A stretch of 53,149 nt of DNA from positions 1 through 53,149 of the forward strand of contig CANQLT010000006.1 in NCBI GenBank assembly GCA_947624775.1, in the 5' to 3' direction. Below are positions 4,033 to 46,095 of this stretch, piece by piece (the first letter of the stretch is position 1; each line of letters starts with the position of its first letter). The DNA comes from an uncultured Monoglobus sp. Its GTDB lineage: Bacteria; Bacillota; Clostridia; Monoglobales; Monoglobaceae. The translations under genes were made by a program, and so were the position numbers. The notes beneath the pieces were generated by a model, which was not told the origin of the DNA, made no database searches, and saw only the letters and a list, made by a program, of their open reading frames with translations.

Positions 4033-4163
4033 GATTTTTAATCGCAAATTAAGCTTGCGAAGCCATGGGGCTCCCGGAAAGCGCTTGCGCTTTTTGGGAA
4101 AAGGAGTAATCGCGGAGCGGGCGCCGGTTTGCGATTTTTAATCGCAAACAAAGCTAGCGAAGC
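4033..4163. repeat. 31-bp direct repeat 100 bp apart, with palindromes, downstream of dut
   Basis: GATTTTTAATCGCAAA...AAGCTTGCGAAGC at 4033 recurs as GATTTTTAATCGCAAA...AAGCTAGCGAAGC at 4133 with only a few changes. The second copy sits in the palindrome TTTGCGATTTTTAATCGCAAA. Between them lies a further hairpin, GGAAAGCGC/GCGCTTTTTGGG. The block sits between convergent-free 3' space of dut and the tRNA promoter and probably ends dut transcription; it looks like a small dispersed repeat. Confidence 0.5.
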
Positions 4164-35590: not shown

Positions 35591-35674
35591 GCGGGCGTGG
35601 CGGAACTGGCAGACGCGCCAGACTTAGGATCTGGTGGTTTTCCCGTGCAGGTTCAAGTCCTGTCGCCCGCACCA
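35591..35674 (+). tRNA. tRNA-Leu(UAG)
   Basis: Class II tRNA: acceptor GCGGGCG/CGCCCGC, A discriminator, encoded CCA, anticodon stem CCAGA/TCTGG with loop CTTAGGA (UAG), variable arm, T-loop GTTCAAGTC. ORF 35597-35818 is a translation of this tRNA. Confidence 0.96.
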
Positions 35675-35675
35675 G

Positions 35676-35745
35676 CGGAAAATCAACCGCTTTTTTGCGA
35701 AAGTCATGCGAAGCATGACTTTCTTTTTATGCGGTTGATTTTCCG
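35676..35745. repeat. 15-bp perfect inverted repeat enclosing a second hairpin
   Basis: CGGAAAATCAACCGC (35676-35690) pairs exactly with GCGGTTGATTTTCCG (35731-35745). Inside is AAAGTCATGC-gaa-GCATGACTTT, a perfect 10-bp stem. It starts 2 nt after the tRNA-Leu CCA; the TTTTTT after the left arm could also terminate tRNA transcription. Confidence 0.8.
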
Positions 35746-35750
35746 TTATT

Positions 35751-35788
35751 CCCATAAAACGCACTGTGTTGGCGTTTTATGGGAGCCC
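35751..35788. repeat. Stem-loop repeat, copy 1
   Basis: CCCATAAAACGC, 9-nt loop ACTGTGTTG, GCGTTTTATGGG, then AGCCC. A related 38-nt stem-loop lies at 45792-45829, with three paired substitutions that keep the stem, so the hairpin itself appears conserved. Confidence 0.7.
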
Positions 35789-35790
35789 AG

Positions 35791-35829
35791 AATGTTCTTA
35801 CAGGACTTATGCCTGTGAGAACATTTTTT
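35791..35829. terminator. Terminator between tRNA-Leu and the SLH gene 3' end
   Basis: AATGTTCTTACAGG, 7-nt loop, CCTGTGAGAACATT (one G-U), then TTTTTTAT on plus. Third hairpin in a row between two convergent transcripts. Confidence 0.8.
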
Positions 35830-35854
35830 ATCCTGTTTTTTTGTTGTTTTCCGC

Positions 35855-38800
35855 TTATTTGAACGTCTTATCAAATCTTCCGAATACGGCTGCCGCTTCC
35901 GCGCGGATGGCATTGCCGAGCGGCGTTAATGTTCCGTCGCCGTTTCCGCTCATAAGTCCGGCTCCGCATGCCCACTGTATAGCGGGAATTGCGTATTCGC
36001 TTATGTCTCCCGCGTCCGTATAACTCAGAATATTCGTATCTTCTCCCACAGAGGTATCTATGCCCTTGTATGTGGCGTACCTGTACAGCATCGTCGCCAT
36101 CTGTTCGCGAAGAATATCGTCATCCGGGCCGAATTCCGTGTCGGAGTAGCCGTTTACAATTCCGTTTGCGCTTGCCCATGCCACGGCGTCATGATAGTAG
36201 GCATCCGCCGGGACATCCGCAAAGCTGCTTGTTCCTCCTTCCGGTGAGCCGTCTATTCGATACAGAACCGTTACGAACATTCCTCTGGTTATATTCGCGT
36301 TCGGGTCAAATGCCGTATCGCTTACACCGTTCATCAGACCGTTTTCGTATGCATATTTTACATCATCATAGAACCAGTCGGTTGTGCTCACGTCGGCAAA
36401 CGGAAGTTCTTTTGGCGGTTCGGCAGTTGCCTGCGGCTCTTCCGAAGGCGTGGGCGTGGGTGTGGCATTGCCCGTTCCGAACGTTCCGCCGCCTCCGCCA
36501 ATGCTGCCTCCGCCTGATGGAGAGTGGCCTCCGGACGACTCTTTCACATTTACGGTCACGCTGTCAGCCAGCTCGGTTCCGTCGATCTCAGCCGTTATGG
36601 TCACGGTTCCGGATCCGATGCCGGTAACGTCGCCGTTGGGGCCTACCTTAGCGATGTTCTCGTTGCTGCTGCTCCATGTCACATTGCTGTCCGCGGCCGC
36701 CGCAAGAGGAAGTATCCCGGCTTCAAGGGACAGTGTGCCGCCGACACCGACCTCCGCCTGTTCTACATCATTGCCATCCCGCCTGATGTTTAGCGCAAGG
36801 GGAACATCCTCTTCGGGGATCGTCCCGGTGAATGACTTAAAGGCGTTGACATTAAATGCGTCAAGGTCGTAGGTCCCTTCGCCGCTCACCTCTCCGGCTT
36901 CGTCATAGAGAGGAGCGCGTTTCTCGCCGTCGTAAACTTCAAGCATAAATCCCGCGGCTTTGTTCGCCGAGAACTTATCATCGGTTATCGGCATGGAACG
37001 GATCGTGACGGTCGTCGACTCTCCTACCCCGATCGCTTCAATATCGCCGTCTTCATCCATCCAGCCCACCTCGGTATACGGTGTGAAGCCCGAGGAGTTT
37101 ACCACGCTGGCATTCTGCGGCGCACTTTCAAGATACTCTTGAATTTCCTCATCCGAAGCCGTATCCATATCGGGAGCATTCGGGTCGTCGAGAATATTCT
37201 GATTTTCAATTTCCATAATTAGTCTGGGATTGCTTGCCTCCACGTTGCCGCTGTTCGTGATTTCGGTAACTACCACAAAGACGGAGCCGTTCACATCGCC
37301 TCTGATCAGGCTGCCGTTTTCATCTATGCCCTTTATCTCATGACTTCTGCCGCTGATCACGTTAATATTGCCGATATCCAGTCTGGAGCCTACTCTTATT
37401 GGCGCTTCGACCGAAGATGTTTCGCCGCGGTCCGGCTCGCTTACCGTAAGCACTGCCTTATAGCTTGCGCCCGCAAGCGCCTTGTCGATCATATCCTGTG
37501 TCATGTCAAGGTATGCCGTAATTTCTGTCTTACCTCCCGCCAGCAGCATATCCTCGCTTGACGCGTCAACGGTCTGAATTACATTCTCGCTGCCGTCAGC
37601 CGCGGTTTCAACAATTTCAGCCTTGGCATTTACGCTCTTGCTTGCCAGCAGTCCGGTGTTCTCGACCTCAGCGGTCACGCTGAATTCCTCGCCCGCCTTC
37701 GGATAGTCGTCGGAAAGCTCGATGCTGCCTTCCGTGAATTCAAGGGAGCCTATCGACGTAAAGTGCGCCGCGCACAGATCGTTGTTATCCCGCGTTTTGC
37801 CCGCCATGATCTCGTTGCCGTCCTCGTCGGTGGCTGTAACGTCAACCATGTCAAAGTCGTTGTAGAGTATTACCATATTTCCGTTTTCATCTACGCCCGC
37901 GGAAGGATTGTCAACATACTCGCGTTCCTCATCGTTTTCGCTCTCAAGCGAGAATTCTCTGGGTATGCGCCACAGCTCGTCATATGTGCCGTTTTCGTTG
38001 GGACGCAGAGTCAGCGTGGATATCATGAGCTTTTGCTCATCACCCGTGGACTGGGGCCACAATACATACACATTGCCGTCCTCGCCGTTCACAACGGTGT
38101 AGCCGTTTCCGTAAGACATACCGACTTCTCCGGTTTCGGGATCGGGGTCGTTGTATATGGCAACGCCCGGATCATACTCATCCTTTAAGGTATAGCTCGG
38201 TATTTGGGTACCGTTCGGCAGTGTTATCTCGGACTTTTCAAGCATTGTTTTCTCTTCATCCGGAATACTCTCGCTTTCATTGCCGAAATCATAATCGCCG
38301 AACATCTTGTCCAGATTGAGGTATCTCAGCTCGCCGTTCTGCGCCCATACTATCATGTTCACCTCGCCGAACTCGTCTGTCACGCTCCTGACAAACCGGG
38401 GATGTGATACATCTGCCATGCCGCTCAGGTTGATAGGCGCGGATGTCACCATACCGTTGTCGCTGCCCGGAGTCAGAACCGACATAAATACGGTTCTGTC
38501 GGTGGAAGTGGCAAGGTTGTTGTCGCCGTCGACCACGTATGCGGCAAGTATCTTATTTTCACCCTCATAGGTGGTGGAGATCATATCCGTCTGTCCCGCG
38601 AGAGGATAATAGGTCGTCTTTCCTTCGGGATCGCTGAGGTTCACATCCAGAATTCTCTGGCCGTACCACTCATCGCCGTACTTCCCTTGTTCGGACTCGG
38701 AATAGGTCTCGGACCATGCTCCGTTTTCGTAGATCCTGTACATGGTAACACCGGGAACCGCCAGCAGCCGTGAGAGGGTGGTTATCTTATCGCCGCCGTA

Positions 38801-41800
38801 TTCGTTATAGTCCACCGTCGTATAGAACAGAACTATCCTGCCGTCGGGGAGCTGTACCGCATGGGGGCTCTCATGGGCAAGACCCCATTTAAACCGGTCT
38901 TCGGTTTCCGTGTTTTTGGTGACCTGCGTAATGCTCTCTTCGGGGATCCCGTTCGCGGCCGCGTTCTTGTCTATGACCACGCTGTATACGTCCAGGGATG
39001 AGAGCATCTTGAGCGAAGAGTCGTAGGGAATTTTAAATTCTTCATCCTGAGACTCGATGTCAAGTTCCGTAAAATCATCCTCTGTGAAGGTTTTGTCCGC
39101 CGACGTCCAGCTGATCATTATCTTGTCGCCGAAATCATCCACGTTAAGACCTGTGTCAATGGTGCCGTCGTTTTGCAGGATCTCGGGCGTTGACCAGTCG
39201 CTGCCGTCATATATGCTGTAATATACGGCGTTTCTGTTGTACTTATCTCTCGAAGAGTCTATGCCTTCAAATGCCGTGAAATATTTGCCGCCGCCGAGAG
39301 GCACAACATTGGTGCGCATATTTACGCTGTCCGTAACCAGGTCGTAGCGATTTGTCTGTTCCGCGGCGGACACAGCCGTAACTTCCCCTGTTCCCGGAAC
39401 ATAGAACGAATTCTCATAATCCTTGGTATTTACCTCCATCTCGGAGAGCTTGGGATCAAAGCCCTGCATTGCCTCGTCCACGGCCGCCTGTACACTGCCA
39501 ACATTATAGAGGGTGTAGTCCCACGATTGCTGCAGGAATTTCCAGTTGAAGTTGAGGAACACAAGATTTATTTCAAAGGCGCCATAGAAGGTAGAGGTTC
39601 CCGTTCCGGAGGTGCCCGGCCCAAAGCCAAGATTGAACTGCTGCAAAAAGCCCAAGTCAAACTCTAGGGACAGCAGCTTTCTTATGCCCGCGCCCACAAA
39701 GCCTTCGATACCTATCGATATCGGGATATTGCCCTTGTACACCAGCGACTTCGGATCTATCTGAAGTTCGTTGAGCGTAGTGGTTTTCGTTGACTGTATT
39801 CCGTTATAAAGACCGAGCGACGTCGAAAATCCGAAGCCTGCATACATAGGTATCGGGAAGCCGGGTATCGTAATATAGAACACGCCGCTTATCGCAAATC
39901 CGACCTGACCGTAAACCATAGCATTGTCAAACAGCCACGTGCCCTCTTCGGGATTGTCGGGTGAAACACCCGCAACAAATTTGAACGTGATGCCGAAGGT
40001 CATGCCCAGATTCATGCCTATGGAACCCTTGCTCTTCACGACAGCGTCTCTTGCCGCGGCCGCCTGTCTTTTATCGGTATAACTGTCGGCTTGTGTAAGA
40101 GCATCCAGTAATTTGTCCAATGCGGCGGTTTCTTTGTCAAACGCCTTTGCCGAATTTTTCGCCGTGTTCAACACGTCCGACATTTGGTTTTTGTCCGGAG
40201 TTGTTATATTCTGCGCTTGATTACCGCCGGTGATAGGAGCTGTGTTTGCGGCTTCATTCCAAGCCGCATCAGCAGCCTGATACTTCTCCTCCGCCTCGGT
40301 AAGGACTGCGGCGGCGTTCGCCTGATCTACAGGGTTATCCGACTTTGATGCTTCATCCACCTGCTTGGATGCTTCTTTTAACTCTTTTTTGGCGACCTCT
40401 CTTTCCGTATATGCGTCCATCTCCTTCTGTGTGGTGAGCTTTTCCGGGAATTGCTGTTTAAGAACCTTATTCAGCAAGCCCACGGAAAATCCGATATTGC
40501 ACTCAAAGCTGGTAGCGGTTACGATGGCCTGCACTGTCAGAGGCCCGGCCGAAACCTTGGGTGTCATCTTGCCGATAACGTCCAGGGTAGGCAGGTCGGG
40601 GCTGGTCTCATCCGGCCCTATATTCGGGATCTGAATCTCTATGTCCTGACCGGGCACCTCATGGAATGTAATTCCGGTGTCAAATTCGCCGTAGCTGACC
40701 TCCACCTCGCCGACTGTGCCGTCGGCGCCGGTTACGGTCTCGGCCCCTTTGAGGTCTACGAATACCCGGTCGCCGTCATGGAAGTTAAGCAGCGCGTTCA
40801 AGGGCATCTTCACGATCTCGCCCGTATCAAGTTCGGTGGGGACCGAAGTAAGATCCACCGCGTAGTCGTATGAGTCGGGCTGTACATCGACCGTATATTC
40901 ATTGCGCTTTGCCATTTCGGTATCGTATATTGTGAATACCACGCTCTTCAGCTTTTTATACTGGTCGTGGACGTTTAATCTGAATCCGACGGAGCTGTCG
41001 GACATATTGACCTGCCCCATCGCGGCGTTTTGGGTGTCGGCTTTTTCGTAGGACGGTATTTCGCCGCTCGGCCCTACAAGCACCGAAATGCCGACGGGCT
41101 GCGGCTCCTCCTCACTTGCGAAAAAGTCAACGACCACATCGCCGACCTTGCCTGTCTGCTTATCGGGCTTCAGCAGAGCAAGAGTGTTGATATGATTGCT
41201 GTTTATAAGCGCGGTTATGTACTCGTTGCCGCTGTTTAGCATCATCGGGTAGCTGATATTTTCCCCGGCTGCTTCATCGCCTTCCGTCCAGTGGAGAGAA
41301 TATGTTCCGTCCGACTTGGTAAGACCGTAGAAAGAGCCTGCCGAAACCGTGGCGCCTGCCGCGGGCTCATATCCGTCTATCGGCTCTCCGGTGTTGAGCA
41401 CCGGCGGATTGAGCAGGCTTGCGCTGTACTTTAAGGCCTTGCCGTTTAACTCCGGAACCTCCGCCGCGTCCGCATTCTCAAAACTGAGCGTTATCTCGTT
41501 ATCGCCGTTGTGTATCTCATAGTACAGCGTCCAGCCGCCTATGTTTAGTCCCTTCCACGGATGATTTTCGGTGTTGACCGTCCAGGTGGGTACGTGCTTG
41601 GTCGATGCGGAGTGATATATGTCGGGATCGAGGAACTTTCTCAAATCGATCGAAATGACGTCTCCCGCCTTCATATCGTTGTTCTTCATCATGTCGTCTA
41701 TATCGGCTTGTATCTGCTCAAGCGGAATATTTATATCGGGAACCGTTTTATCGAGACTCAGCCGCACAAATGTGCCCTCCGCCGAATACTTCGGATATAT

Positions 41801-44491
41801 GATATAATCCTTGGGTTCCAGCTTGATGGTACTCTTTTCATCGGTCATGCTGAATGGGATCTGATACTGCGCCCCGGACTGTCCTATGGGCGAGGAGCTG
41901 CCGCCCCAGCCCGCAAAATTATAGCGTTCATCTGTGCCGTACGGCTCGATGGTTATACTGTCCGCCGCATAAAGGGTGATTTTCTTATCCTTGTCACCAC
42001 TGTTCAGGCTCCAGGGGCCGCCGTGTGAAGATGTATTGTCGGTCAGCTTCATGCCGCCGTTTTTGTCGGATTTAAGCGTGACCGAAACAGCCTTCTTCGA
42101 ATAGATAGGCTTCAGCTTAATGGTGCCGTAATCGTTGCTTCCCGTTGTGTTGTTCGCCTTAAAAGCAACGCAGCAGTAATCCAATAACTCCGCCAAATCA
42201 AGAGTCAAGCCTTTCGGGTCAAAAAATTCCGCCGAATTGGTTACCTGGTATGTTTTATTATTGATAGTAACCTCCATTCCGGTCAGCACATAGTTGTCGT
42301 TTCTGGTTGTTTCTACAAGGGAAACCTTCTCTCTGCCGTAAAAGCTCATTTTCGTGCCCTGTGATTTATTGTCCCTAGACTGCATCGCCAGTGTGCCGGG
42401 GATCACGCCGTCAATGGGGTCGGGATTTACCATTTCAAAGGGCAGTTCCATGTATTTGAAACGGACAGCTTTGATCTCGGTGTGCATACCGTTAAAGCCG
42501 CCGCTGTTCTTGTAAACCTCCCATGTGAAATATTGCGGTTTAATGGACGGCCACGTGCCATTGTTCTTTATAAAATTACTTGGGCTGTAACTCTGCCGGG
42601 CGCCGCCGGGGTCATCTACATTACCGGTTTGCAGATCAATGGTTGTTGTCTGTCCGGACGTGTGATCTCCCACAAAAGTAATCGTTGAGTTTCCGTGGAA
42701 TGCGTCGTTGTTATCCTTCATCGATTGATTTTTGACAAGGGAGAAAAAGTTATAGTTGGCTCTGACGCCTTCATAGTCTTCCGCATACCAATCTATGGAA
42801 ACCGATTGAATCGGGGGCATCGAATTCACATTGAAGTTGCGTGTGAAGCATATATAAGTGCCGCAGCATCCGCACCCATGATCCGGAATATCAAAATAAT
42901 AATATCCGTCTTTGTATCCGGCGCTTTTGCCTTTGCAAGGACCGGATAAGACTAAAGAACCAATGGAAAAAAGGCTATTTATATCAAACTCAAAATGGTC
43001 ATAAAACTCTTCTCCGTCAGCTTTAAACGGATTATTGGAACTGTTTGCCTTGATTTTCTTGCCCGTCGCTGCACTCGTGACAATACCGTCGCTTGAGTCA
43101 TTTGAGGCGGACAAAATTTCCACCGTGGTATAGTTCTCGCTGACGTCACAGCCCACGGCATTGGCAAGACTCAGGTATATGGTTTTCGCTCCGCTGCCCG
43201 CAACACCGGTCATGGGTACTTCTATGGTCTGTGTGTCCATGCCGGGCATGAAGACCACGTTGCCCTGGATCAACACATTATTGGTGTCTGTAATGGCTGT
43301 GAACGTCACAGTGCTGAGCTGATACAGAGGGTCGTTCCGGCGCAGCTCCGCCTTGAAGCTGTCGGAATCCTCGCTGATGCCGGTAACCGTGGCGCTGTCC
43401 ACATAAACATAGGGAGAAACATAGTCCTCGTCGTCCTTAATGGTGATCTGCGCGTTGTTTCTCACATCAAGGGCATAGCCGTCGCCCGAGCCGTTTATGT
43501 ATGCCACAAACACTCTGTCGCCGTTGCTCTCGTCGTCATTGTTGGGGTACACCGTGACTTTTTTCAGAGTCTCTCCGTCCTCAAACACGACCTCTGTTTC
43601 GGCACAGGGAAAAGCCTCGGCCATCAGCTCGTTGCTGATGCGGGCAGTTTCGGGATCGGAATCTTCCCCGGTTATAAAGTTGCCGAAGGTAAGGTTGCTG
43701 CCCGAGAACTGGCTGACCTGATCGTTCAGGGCGTAAAGGGGGCTTTTTTCCTCCGCTTCGCCGGCGCTCTGGTATATGGGCTCCTCCGCAGAAACGGACT
43801 CGCTTTGCGCCGAGGCGTCCGCCTCCTCGTTATCCTCGTCGGCAGGAACATTCTCATCAGCGGCAACATCCTCGTCAGTAGCAGCATCCTCGTCGGCAGG
43901 AATATCCTCGTCTGCGGCAGCATCCTCATCGGCGTCGGCAGCGTCTTCCTCCGCCTCACCGGCGGATTCTTCCTCATCCTTCGCCGTGGCCTCGATGTAT
44001 TCACCGACCAGCTCCTCCATATGCTGCACGCTTTCCTCGCCGTATTGGTCCACCAGATCCTCATAGGTGGCGTCCTCGCCGGTCAGAGGGTTATCCTGCG
44101 AGAACATATACATGATCGGAACCGCGTTCTCATTTGGTTCGATCTCATCCTTTGAGAAAACGGAATTCTCCACCTCGGCGGTGTAGTCCTTGCCGTACTG
44201 CGCGGAATAGTCCTGGAACCTGAGACTGAGCTTCGCCTCGCCCTGGGTCCCGCCGTATCTGGCGATATAGAACGTCAGAGGTTCTCCCGCGTTCTCGTCA
44301 ACCTCGGCGGCGATCTGCGGTATCGCAAACAGACCGCCGGGATATTGCTCTTTTAGAACAGGATCCGCGTTTTCCAATGATTCCCGGATCGCGCTGAGCT
44401 CATCCCTTGTGCCGTCCTCGGCAAAAGCCAAAGTAGGCACCGCTGTCAAGACCATACTCAGCACAAGCATGAAAGAAATAATACGTTTCAT
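35855..44491 (-). CDS. Giant SLH-domain cell-surface protein (2878 aa)
   Basis: Secreted protein anchored to the cell wall, by family knowledge through SLH binding to pyruvylated wall polymers. Signal peptide 1-24 (MKRIISFMLVLSM...AFA); Calx-beta-like repeat (about 62-130, FYIARYGGTQGEAKLSLRF...YGKDYTAE); Glu/Asp/Ala hexapeptide tract (187-222); a second Calx-beta-like segment (about 355-460); an InlB-type repeat (about 800-890); a helical coiled-coil insert (about 1350-1475); a long beta-rich part with propeller-like strands (about 1690-2160); CARDB-like domain; Big2 Ig-like domain (about 2561-2650, VTWSSSNENIAKV); Gly and Pro/Thr linkers; three SLH motifs (2697-2876, FADVSTTDWFYDDVKYAYENGLMNG...). 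AAAGGAAG precedes the ATG. The reading frame is fully intact, unlike the adhesin locus downstream. Possible S-layer protein or adhesin; ligand unknown. Confidence 0.9.
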   Translation of the reverse strand: MKRIISFMLVLSMVLTAVPTLAFAEDGTRDELSAIRESLENADPVLKEQYPGGLFAIPQIAAEVDENAGEPLTFYIARYGGTQGEAKLSLRFQDYSAQYGKDYTAEVENSVFSKDEIEPNENAVPIMYMFSQDNPLTGEDATYEDLVDQYGEESVQHMEELVGEYIEATAKDEEESAGEAEEDAADADEDAAADEDIPADEDAATDEDVAADENVPADEDNEEADASAQSESVSAEEPIYQSAGEAEEKSPLYALNDQVSQFSGSNLTFGNFITGEDSDPETARISNELMAEAFPCAETEVVFEDGETLKKVTVYPNNDDESNGDRVFVAYINGSGDGYALDVRNNAQITIKDDEDYVSPYVYVDSATVTGISEDSDSFKAELRRNDPLYQLSTVTFTAITDTNNVLIQGNVVFMPGMDTQTIEVPMTGVAGSGAKTIYLSLANAVGCDVSENYTTVEILSASNDSSDGIVTSAATGKKIKANSSNNPFKADGEEFYDHFEFDINSLFSIGSLVLSGPCKGKSAGYKDGYYYFDIPDHGCGCCGTYICFTRNFNVNSMPPIQSVSIDWYAEDYEGVRANYNFFSLVKNQSMKDNNDAFHGNSTITFVGDHTSGQTTTIDLQTGNVDDPGGARQSYSPSNFIKNNGTWPSIKPQYFTWEVYKNSGGFNGMHTEIKAVRFKYMELPFEMVNPDPIDGVIPGTLAMQSRDNKSQGTKMSFYGREKVSLVETTRNDNYVLTGMEVTINNKTYQVTNSAEFFDPKGLTLDLAELLDYCCVAFKANNTTGSNDYGTIKLKPIYSKKAVSVTLKSDKNGGMKLTDNTSSHGGPWSLNSGDKDKKITLYAADSITIEPYGTDERYNFAGWGGSSSPIGQSGAQYQIPFSMTDEKSTIKLEPKDYIIYPKYSAEGTFVRLSLDKTVPDINIPLEQIQADIDDMMKNNDMKAGDVISIDLRKFLDPDIYHSASTKHVPTWTVNTENHPWKGLNIGGWTLYYEIHNGDNEITLSFENADAAEVPELNGKALKYSASLLNPPVLNTGEPIDGYEPAAGATVSAGSFYGLTKSDGTYSLHWTEGDEAAGENISYPMMLNSGNEYITALINSNHINTLALLKPDKQTGKVGDVVVDFFASEEEPQPVGISVLVGPSGEIPSYEKADTQNAAMGQVNMSDSSVGFRLNVHDQYKKLKSVVFTIYDTEMAKRNEYTVDVQPDSYDYAVDLTSVPTELDTGEIVKMPLNALLNFHDGDRVFVDLKGAETVTGADGTVGEVEVSYGEFDTGITFHEVPGQDIEIQIPNIGPDETSPDLPTLDVIGKMTPKVSAGPLTVQAIVTATSFECNIGFSVGLLNKVLKQQFPEKLTTQKEMDAYTEREVAKKELKEASKQVDEASKSDNPVDQANAAAVLTEAEEKYQAADAAWNEAANTAPITGGNQAQNITTPDKNQMSDVLNTAKNSAKAFDKETAALDKLLDALTQADSYTDKRQAAAARDAVVKSKGSIGMNLGMTFGITFKFVAGVSPDNPEEGTWLFDNAMVYGQVGFAISGVFYITIPGFPIPMYAGFGFSTSLGLYNGIQSTKTTTLNELQIDPKSLVYKGNIPISIGIEGFVGAGIRKLLSLEFDLGFLQQFNLGFGPGTSGTGTSTFYGAFEINLVFLNFNWKFLQQSWDYTLYNVGSVQAAVDEAMQGFDPKLSEMEVNTKDYENSFYVPGTGEVTAVSAAEQTNRYDLVTDSVNMRTNVVPLGGGKYFTAFEGIDSSRDKYNRNAVYYSIYDGSDWSTPEILQNDGTIDTGLNVDDFGDKIMISWTSADKTFTEDDFTELDIESQDEEFKIPYDSSLKMLSSLDVYSVVIDKNAAANGIPEESITQVTKNTETEDRFKWGLAHESPHAVQLPDGRIVLFYTTVDYNEYGGDKITTLSRLLAVPGVTMYRIYENGAWSETYSESEQGKYGDEWYGQRILDVNLSDPEGKTTYYPLAGQTDMISTTYEGENKILAAYVVDGDNNLATSTDRTVFMSVLTPGSDNGMVTSAPINLSGMADVSHPRFVRSVTDEFGEVNMIVWAQNGELRYLNLDKMFGDYDFGNESESIPDEEKTMLEKSEITLPNGTQIPSYTLKDEYDPGVAIYNDPDPETGEVGMSYGNGYTVVNGEDGNVYVLWPQSTGDEQKLMISTLTLRPNENGTYDELWRIPREFSLESENDEEREYVDNPSAGVDENGNMVILYNDFDMVDVTATDEDGNEIMAGKTRDNNDLCAAHFTSIGSLEFTEGSIELSDDYPKAGEEFSVTAEVENTGLLASKSVNAKAEIVETAADGSENVIQTVDASSEDMLLAGGKTEITAYLDMTQDMIDKALAGASYKAVLTVSEPDRGETSSVEAPIRVGSRLDIGNINVISGRSHEIKGIDENGSLIRGDVNGSVFVVVTEITNSGNVEASNPRLIMEIENQNILDDPNAPDMDTASDEEIQEYLESAPQNASVVNSSGFTPYTEVGWMDEDGDIEAIGVGESTTVTIRSMPITDDKFSANKAAGFMLEVYDGEKRAPLYDEAGEVSGEGTYDLDAFNVNAFKSFTGTIPEEDVPLALNIRRDGNDVEQAEVGVGGTLSLEAGILPLAAAADSNVTWSSSNENIAKVGPNGDVTGIGSGTVTITAEIDGTELADSVTVNVKESSGGHSPSGGGSIGGGGGTFGTGNATPTPTPSEEPQATAEPPKELPFADVSTTDWFYDDVKYAYENGLMNGVSDTAFDPNANITRGMFVTVLYRIDGSPEGGTSSFADVPADAYYHDAVAWASANGIVNGYSDTEFGPDDDILREQMATMLYRYATYKGIDTSVGEDTNILSYTDAGDISEYAIPAIQWACGAGLMSGNGDGTLTPLGNAIRAEAAAVFGRFDKTFK
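43826..43933 (-). repeat. 18-bp tandem repeat encoding six acidic hexapeptides
   Basis: Six units ADEDAA, ADEDIP, ADEDAA, TDEDVA, ADENVP, ADEDNE at residues 187-222 of the SLH protein. The tract is strongly acidic and likely disordered, a possible calcium-binding or spacer region. Confidence 0.85.
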
Positions 44492-44669
44492 TTAATTTCA
44501 CTTCCTTTATATATTTTTTTATTTTTTGTTTTTTACAAATTTAGTGAGCCGACTCAGCCTGCCGGAGAAACCGCGCAGACAAAGGCGCACAGCCCGGCTT
44601 TCCCCGGTTTAATATACCGCTCTGTATAATATCATGTGCAAAAGTAAAAAAATTCCGCTATATTGTCAA

Positions 44670-44699
44670 TTGTATCCTCCCACGTAAGTTGTTGTCAAG
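44670..44699 (-). promoter_or_regulatory. Proximal promoter of the SLH protein gene
   Basis: Minus strand TTGACA, 18-bp spacer, TACAAT. It implies a leader of roughly 170 nt whose middle (44550-44625) is GC-rich and able to fold, in contrast to the AT-rich surroundings. I could not match it to a known riboswitch. Confidence 0.65.
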
Positions 44700-44813
44700 T
44701 ATTTTATGCTTTATTTACAAATAATAATGTGATATTCTTTCTTTTTTGTAAATTTTTCTTAAAATTTCATTTATACCTTGGCTTCCATAGAGAGTATTGT
44801 TATTACAAATAAG

Positions 44814-44844
44814 ATTATATCATGTCCACCCATGAACAAGTCAA
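44814..44844 (-). promoter_or_regulatory. Distal promoter with a 19-bp spacer carrying a dyad (MerR-type layout)
   Basis: Minus strand TTGACT, 19-bp spacer, TATAAT. The spacer holds TCATG-6nt-CATGA. Over-long 19-bp spacers with a dyad between -35 and -10 are the hallmark of promoters activated by MerR-family regulators. A truncated MerR-like reading frame starts 20 bp away in the opposite direction. Reads toward the SLH gene. Confidence 0.5.
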
Positions 44845-44863
44845 TACTTTTGAGGTGTTTTTT

Positions 44864-44953
44864 TTGAAAAAATTTTTTACTATTCGACAAGTTGTGCAAA
44901 GCTGCGGGATATCCCGCGCTGTGATTCTTTCGGCATTGCCGATAGATGCTTAA
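44864..44953 (+). pseudogene. Truncated MerR-like regulator N-terminus (29 codons)
   Basis: TTG 44864 has GAGGTG 6 nt upstream. The 29 codons end at TAA 44951-44953 and include FFTIRQVVQSCGISRAVIL, which resembles the first helix-turn-helix of MerR-type proteins (TIGQVAK.CGVSRATLR). It stops before the wing and the rest of the DNA-binding domain. I could not find the continuation in another frame. Too short for the ORF track. It may be a decayed regulator of the adjacent 19-bp-spacer promoter. Family call is tentative. Confidence 0.35.
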
Positions 44954-45396
44954 AAACCACAATTTGGGTACAGCAAAACACAACTTCTAATTACTATACA
45001 ATAATATGATTCTTATGCGCGCGAGTTCTAATCATATAGTTAGAGTAATCCATAGGATTATGCCATAAGTTATGAAATCTTCCACTTCTTAGCCTTTCCT
45101 GTTTTTAGCCTAAAAAACTACGTTTTTTCGCTGTTTGAGGCCGCCTACTGCGTGACAGCCTACCCCTTTTATCGGACTGCCGTTTTTCATCTGCTGCCAT
45201 GGCCATGTTGTACAGCGCAGATATTATATAACTCTTCGATCTGCCCGTGCGTTATCAGGCGATAAAGGTTTTCATAGTCGACTTTTTAATTTCGGATTTT
45301 ATTTGCTCATATCTATCCATCCTACATTATTGTTTTTCTTCACAGACACGTGATTGATAGATGGATAGATAGTTTGTTATGTTAGTTTTTAATATT
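44954..45396. other. Gene-free stretch with degraded minus-strand coding remnants
   Basis: No intact gene. On the minus strand between 45090 and 45370, short broken frames read like the tail of the replication-type protein upstream (SIYPSINHVSVKKNNNVGWIDMSK, MDRYEQIKSEIKK, ALYNMAMAADEKRQ), separated by stops and frame changes. 44990-45090 shows nothing I can assign. Confidence 0.4.
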
Positions 45397-45854
45397 TTAG
45401 TATTTTAATAAATTAGTATTTAATTGCGTTGACTTATCCAACATTGGATTTTCCAATATAGGCTTTTCCAACGTAGGATCATCCGATATAGGGTTTACGG
45501 ATACAGGTTTTTCTCAACATTATTTTCTGTGTCACATTCTTTCTGCCTCGGCACCTCATAAAAAGTGTATTCGGTCTTTGAGAGTTTGCCGCTGCTGCTT
45601 ATCAAGCGTCTGCGTTTCACATATCCTGCGCCTTCAAGGTCTTTAATAGACGAGCGAATGGCGTCAACGACCTCTTTGCTGATTGCAGCCAAACCTTTGA
45701 TAGTAAAATCCCAATTATCGGGCAGACTGAGAACAACCGACAACAACCCTTTTGACCTCAAAAATAATTCTTTGCCGTTTTCGGCGCTTTTCCCACAAAG
45801 CACACTTCGTTGGTGCTTTGCGGAAGCCCTAAGAGACCGCTTTTTTATGAACAC
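45397..45854 (-). pseudogene. Broken replication-initiator-like (DUF6017-type) helix-turn-helix protein of mobile-element origin
   Basis: The 119-aa ORF (45495-45854) carries FLRSKGLLSVVLSLPDNWDFTIKGLAAISKEVVDAIRSSIKDLEGAGYVKRRR, the helix-turn-helix of replisome-organiser-like proteins on Clostridia plasmids and integrative elements. Homology begins only near residue 30; the preceding part runs through the stem-loop at 45792. After GAGAAAAACC the frame stops (NVEKNLYP), but shifting by one base gives EKPVSVNPISDDPTLEKPILENPMLDKSTQLNTNL down to 45397, the Pro/Asn-rich linker this family carries. So it is 5'-damaged and frameshifted. More remnants continue below 45370. A relic of a mobile element between two surface-protein loci. 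Confidence 0.7.
45792..45829. repeat. Stem-loop repeat, copy 2
   Basis: CCCACAAAGCAC, loop ACTTCGTTG, GTGCTTTGCGGA, then AGCCC; 28 of 38 bases match the copy at 35751. Three changed base pairs remain paired. Like copy 1 it is followed by another hairpin (CACCTT/AAGGTG, about 45848-45865) and a TTTTTT run. Confidence 0.65.
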
Positions 45855-45994
45855 CTTTCTTGCAAGGTGCTCTTTTTTACCCGTTTATGCTCCAAAACGG
45901 GTGTTTCGTGTCATAGGTATTGAAAAATTATTTTTTATGTGATATAGTTATGCATGATTAATTTGAATTATTGTGGCCTGTCAGGCACGCCCCC

Positions 45995-46036
45995 CTTGGG
46001 GATAATCAGCAAACCTGCTTGCGGGTTATCCCCAAG
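45995..46036. repeat. Perfect 11-bp hairpin before the GLUG adhesin locus
   Basis: CTTGGGGATAA ... TTATCCCCAAG enclosing AACC/GGTT. No T-tract. It lies at the upstream edge of the adhesin remnant, where the start of that gene would be expected. No promoter is evident between 45870 and 46090. Confidence 0.6.
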
Positions 46037-46095
46037 AGGCGAGGCTAAAATTTGAAAATTATTAATACACACATACACACAAGGAGGATTTTATC

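Follow-up and report, generated by a model that had tools for sequence, protein, structure and literature searches.

Do two short hairpins that resemble each other at distant places of the same DNA belong to a repeat family, and if so, what would such a family do and how would it spread? The question arises from the genome of a Monoglobus-like gut MAG (2.77 Mb), of which we have analyzed a stretch of 53,149 nucleotides, called here the window. The original prediction, drawn from the two hairpins, was of a small structured repeat family, possibly a mobile miniature element.

The two hairpins and the unit around them

Both hairpins are present, at 35751-35788 (copy 1) and 45792-45829 (copy 2). 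They share the base at 28 of 38 columns, the pairs 5/29, 9/25 and 11/23 have changed on both sides between them, and downstream of each come a second hairpin and a T-run, all as predicted. Compared with dinucleotide shuffles their folds had z values of -4.5 and -3.1 respectively, and none of the 200 shuffles was as good. In copy 2 two outer pairs are broken (1/33, C-A, and 4/30, A-C). What had been overlooked is a larger unit of 114 bases (35675-35788), of which copy 1 forms no more than the 3' part. This unit starts with no base between it and the CCA of a tRNA-Leu(TAG) gene. The features of the window are the following:

35591..35674, + strand: tRNA-Leu (anticodon TAG), genomic CCA included (ARAGORN, Rfam tRNA); the unit begins at the next base
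35675..35690, + strand: left arm of the type A unit, GCGGAAAATCAACCGC, its first base directly 3' of CCA
35699..35723, + strand: inner hairpin GAAAGTCATGC-GAA-GCATGACTTTC, then TTTTT; terminator-like
35731..35746, + strand: right arm GCGGTTGATTTTCCGT, complementary to the left arm
35751..35783, + strand: reported hairpin, copy 1 (33 nt; 12-bp stem, TG bulge, two inner pairs, 3-nt loop)
35784..35788, + strand: conserved tail of copy 1, AGCCC (GGGCT on the opposite strand)
35792..35830, + strand: terminator hairpin AATGTTCTTACAGG...CCTGTGAGAACATT and T6, separate and outside the family
45774..45787, + strand: right-arm remnant GCCGTTTTCGGCGC upstream of copy 2, by comparison with other arms
45792..45824, + strand: reported hairpin, copy 2, with the two broken outer pairs
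45825..45829, + strand: conserved tail of copy 2, AGCCC
45851..45876, + strand: inner hairpin of a degenerate tandem unit after copy 2, AACACCTTTCTTGCAAGGTGCTC and T6
4064..4112, - strand: third member in the window (short hairpin type), flanked by a dUTPase-like gene and two tRNA-Ser genes

The order within the unit is left arm, T-run hairpin, right arm, reported hairpin and AGCCCT. The left arm at 35675-35690 can by itself form a 5-pair hairpin, followed by T6, and for the unit in full the folding energy is -63.1 kcal/mol (z -11.4). We infer that it is the terminator unit of the tRNA-Leu(TAG) gene. The separate terminator that comes after copy 1 (GAATGTTCTTACAGG...CTGTGAGAACATTTTTT, window 35792-35840) was also seen directly after the tRNA-Pro(CGG) of another genome (G009, locus L231).

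Copy 2 has no tRNA beside it. With a right-arm remnant upstream and a degenerate second unit downstream, it is a decayed, left-truncated unit adjoining a gene fragment. This fragment (window 45495-45780, - strand) belongs to an HTH_36/DUF6017 protein of plasmid or ICE type and begins right beside copy 2; its homologue in an E. faecium plasmid extends about 100 residues further upstream. Copies 1 and 2 were possibly once neighbours behind the tRNA-Leu gene, later split by about 10 kb with a 2878-residue S-layer-homology protein. The latter is encoded at 35855-44491 (- strand) and has Calx-beta, Big_2 and three S-layer homology matches.

A family of composite repeats with paired stems

We searched with a pattern made of the bases common to copies 1 and 2, using the reversed pattern as control. 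The host genome contained 13 exact matches (the two window copies and 11 others), and allowing up to 3 mismatches the number increased to 29, versus 4 for the control. With such figures the likeness at 28 of 38 bases is not due to chance. The named genomes with pattern matches were Monoglobus, Clostridia and Ruminococcus MAGs. The covariance-model scan proposed in the original prediction, carried out with a model built from 37 sequences at a threshold of E<=1e-3, detected 57 copies in the host genome, the third window copy among them. Matches appeared in 31 of the 38 genomes of the host's family. Within the genus, 11 of 12 genomes had at least one and nine had between 18 and 57 copies; the closed genus genome (G005) had only 3, all weak. 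At the level of the class, 23 out of 391 genomes matched at 1e-6, and the repeats were dense in two families of the order, the host's own and one other. The predicted structured repeat family is therefore real, with many further copies whose stems still pair. Many of the copies are located at contig ends, so these repeats explain assembly breaks.

No Rfam family reached its curated threshold, either in the window, where only tRNAs were found, or at the other family loci searched. Mahella-1 (Rfam) gave a full-length weak match on the minus strand of copy 1 (E 0.055, 20.4 bits vs 70.7), which we consider a chance match because it was absent at 14 other loci. The repeats could have been phage or plasmid cargo, a reading that was dropped after IMG/VR (searched by pattern), phage records and PLSDB all gave no match.

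The pairing of the reported hairpin is well conserved. Across the 37 aligned sequences, 10 of the 14 pairs of the stem vary, 7 of them with both sides changed, and 94% of the cells are paired vs 36-51% when the partners are slid. One inner pair changes from A-T to G-C in 13 of the 37 without intermediates, and this exchange backs the inner pairs 13/19 and 14/18, while the 2-nt bulge remains. The inner loop comes in three types (33, 27 and 24 nt), with the outer stem and the AGCCCT tail common to all. We looked for a preference for pairing on the sense strand as a sign of selection on RNA and found none: mismatches of the 3' hairpin are more often A.C than G.T, and in 22 of 32 units the antisense fold was at least as stable as the sense one. 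The covariation may therefore reflect hairpins at the DNA level, or gene conversion from arm to arm, rather than a function of the RNA.

The arms behave in a similar manner. There were 12 different left arm sequences among 36 units, and across loci their complementarity to the right arm was 14.6/16 in distinct pairs vs 10.2 when the partners were swapped. Two kinds of copies can be distinguished. Type A are units of 107-117 bases joined without spacing to the CCA end of tRNA or tmRNA genes and often trailed by further truncated units in tandem. Type B are copies that lack the T-run hairpin and are found at intergenic sites with no tRNA. The two types have one 3' hairpin module in common.

Other repeats are associated with the family. 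One of about 95 bp (TAATCAGCAAGCTTGC...AAAATCGCTTGCGATTTT...CTTCCTTAATA) was found nested in the 3' hairpin, where it separates CCC from GAAACGC (e.g., L142:715-808), with the same insertion point at 8 distinct places (L142 and seven other loci); a long hairpin of the window (45978-46039) contains part of it (ATAATCAGCAAACCTGCTTGCGGGTTATC). Adjoining the units at L121, L141 and L144 there are other dispersed repeats: those of the ATTAG type, which end in CACTACGTT, GGGGCGGATAATATCCGCCCC, and CTCCCC...GGCGAAGCC...GAGAGGGG.

Attachment to CCA ends and turnover between loci

To place the units without prejudging their neighbours, we searched for the intact left arm alone, with no CCA in the pattern, and counted the forward units. 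All 26 units with an intact left arm begin directly after CCA, with zero-base spacing. Specifically, 20 of them follow tRNAs recognized by ARAGORN, and the rest follow tmRNA ends (the tmRNA 3' end was confirmed by Rfam), one tRNA-Arg(CCG) 3' end and tRNA-Leu-like 3' ends. The tRNAs that bear units are Leu-TAG, Leu-CAA, Pro-TGG, Pro-CGG, Arg-ACG, Arg-CCG, Tyr, Thr-CGT and Ala-GGC, and also Ala-CGC. In the host genome nine tRNA or tmRNA genes carry units or relatives of units, and by our count the arrays at these genes hold about 24 of the 57 copies. The junction of the 26 units is exact to the base, which suggests that the CCA end may act as an address. The site directly after CCA is tolerated because selection keeps an intact tRNA with a terminator.

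The same genes do not keep the same units. The DNA upstream of the tRNAs was 81% identical at the same locus vs 52% between loci. For the units the corresponding values were 78.0% and 77.5%, a difference reached in 332 of 1000 permutations of the labels. As units from the same locus are no more alike than others, they do not descend with the locus, and by these sequence comparisons they are therefore replaced or copied between loci faster than the species diverge. Orthologous genes, including those of sister species, have the unit present or absent, and with differing arms and hairpins. For example, at the tRNA-Ala(CGC) gene G011 carries a unit where the host genome and G013 show a plain terminator; behind the tRNA-Tyr five species have units, built from different modules, and five others have a plain terminator; and the tRNA-Pro(TGG) is followed by four units in tandem in the host genome vs one in G006. 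Species with no unit have at the same gene an ordinary hairpin and T-run near CCA.

An insert of about 200 bp upstream of glmM in the host genome is absent from two close relatives, and it includes other repeats as well. At the orthologous filled and empty sites that we compared no clean target-site duplication was apparent, the inserts being mosaics of several nested repeats; the GCGCAGGG repeat at one of them is missing from the empty site. Mobility is supported indirectly, by the presence or absence of sites between sister species, by the variable number of tandem units and by the lack of any likeness tied to the locus. Of the predicted mobile miniature element the mobility part is favoured but not the strict MITE sense, since there is neither a clean target-site duplication nor a matching transposase.

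In G010 (L160:1486-1500) a 15-base copy of the tRNA-Leu(TAG) 3' end precedes a displaced unit, and we rather take this copy for the distal end of an island inserted between the tRNA and its unit. Several absences of units at tRNA loci are due to later islands integrated at the tRNA, as in L160, and not to lack of insertion. Downstream of the units we found no integrase-type duplication of the tRNA 3' end in the loci searched. By eye, the DNA just downstream of tRNA genes at L226, L227 and L230 resembles the ends of integrated islands.

Function, spread and relation to known repeats

The explanation that we find reasonably probable is that these are dispersed, protein-less repeats of Monoglobus and its relatives, that the tRNA-linked units serve as terminators, and that the family spreads by copying from site to site. 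Downstream of these tRNAs no terminator-like structure comes before the T-run stems of the units, which show what characterizes intrinsic terminators, a stem containing G+C and then a T-run, directly downstream of the tRNA. Because of this, and because an ordinary terminator occupies that place in the species with no unit, the unit is a predicted terminator, and termination would be its most economical function. The stems and T-runs of type A would supply the intrinsic transcription terminator of the tRNA or tmRNA gene, and the base after CCA would be favoured since an insert at that point does not alter the mature RNA and takes the place of a terminator that is needed. Units would spread by transposition in trans or by gene conversion between units; we identified no transposase or other mover for the family (the host genome has no Y1/RAYT).

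The nearest published analogues are the pneumococcal SPRITE and BOX (PMC3049150) and the REP/RAYT systems (PMC8266576, PMC6006769). SPRITEs are repeats of pneumococcus that resemble Rho-independent terminators, proposed to have been co-opted as such and with no known mover (PMC3049150). The likeness, which is of anatomy only, consists in a dispersed repeat with a terminator-like stem and T-rich tract near gene 3' ends; however, SPRITEs lie near CDS 3' ends in Streptococcus and form a single duplex, whereas the Monoglobus unit is fused to the CCA ends of tRNA and tmRNA, has two arms, an inner hairpin and another one after them, and occurs in tandem arrays. BOX, also of Streptococcus, is a modular, non-coding composite that forms hairpins and has variable tandem inner modules, but in another host and with other modules, and the passages on it describe no tRNA attachment (PMC3049150). 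Compared by anatomy, the Monoglobus unit would work like SPRITE and be built like BOX. A literature search for repeats of such kind in Firmicutes or at tRNA ends found no published description among the papers available without subscription. Canonical MITEs and the palindrome elements derived from IS200/IS605 are small, non-coding and presumed to be moved in trans. The Monoglobus unit is likewise small, non-coding and presumably moved in trans, but it does not have the terminal inverted repeats of a MITE: the left arm is at the start of the unit and the right arm is internal, before the 3' hairpin.

REP, BIME and REPIN sequences with their RAYT (TnpAREP) are also short extragenic hairpins found in high copy and in clusters (PMC8266576, PMC6006769, PMC3116915), and our family, with many extragenic hairpins in the 20-40 nt range of REPs, shares with them a stem with a conserved tag at its foot, bulged and irregular as in group 2 REPs. 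The units could then be REP/RAYT-like or IS200/IS605-derived single-stranded DNA elements, in which a Y1 HUH transposase cuts and spreads the bottom-strand GGGCT and bulged hairpin. The high copy number, the tandem clusters and the position of the tag, at the 5' side of the bottom strand, would agree with this. Besides, in E. coli REPs the bulge of the stem is needed and the cut is made at a CT beside the stem (PMC8266576), and GGGCT also ends in a CT beside the stem. However, Y1_Tnp (PF01797) is absent from the host genome and was found in only 2 of the 12 genomes of the genus; the copy-rich G010 and G011 are not among these. The canonical REP tag is GT[AG]G (PMC6006769), while the 37-sequence alignment has AGCCC (GGGCT on the opposite strand). 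Membership in REP/RAYT fails on these two defining features, transposase and tag, to which can be added the attachment to tRNA ends, and we consider this origin unlikely. Another possibility is that copies of DNA or cDNA were joined to the 3' CCA by tRNA-primed synthesis and returned by recombination at the tRNA gene. This would explain the exact junction in 26 of 26 units and the use of tmRNA as well as tRNA, but no reverse transcriptase is linked to the family, units occur also away from tRNAs, and selection that favours an intact tRNA and a terminator can partly account for what is seen; we hold it to be very improbable. A broader version, that copying or transposition uses a tRNA-like CCA end as address (by tRNA-primed synthesis or an enzyme that recognises the 3' end) and delivers a protein-less terminator cassette with single-base precision, is a speculation to which we would give a somewhat better, still small, chance.

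Two further explanations dispense with mobility or place the selection on RNA. Ordinary tRNA terminators might look alike through shared constraint or convergence, and their strong stems, their T-runs, their position right after tRNA genes and the ordinary terminators at that place in unit-less genomes are all compatible with it. Yet one finds the very same 16-base arms and hairpins behind different tRNA genes, arms and hairpins are swapped between orthologous genes, and the same 3' hairpin appears at sites with no tRNA and in tandem arrays, so that such a non-mobile reading is improbable and already hard to hold. The strong folds and the covariation over 37 sequences could also mean that the units express a structured RNA (an sRNA or a cis element) conserved for its function. 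We think this has the least chance, given that no Rfam family reaches threshold, that the pairing shows no bias to the sense strand and that units at orthologous loci differ freely.

Dispersed repeats of bacteria are usually regarded as debris, or else as parasites that have a known transposase. In the present case a repeat begins immediately 3' of the CCA in tmRNA and in many tRNA genes, apparently as their terminator, and is swapped between loci. If confirmed, this would mean that tRNA 3' ends have a mobile, exchangeable terminator module, which bears on the processing of tRNA 3' ends, on tRNA genes as landing sites of islands and on the spread of palindromic repeats without RAYT.
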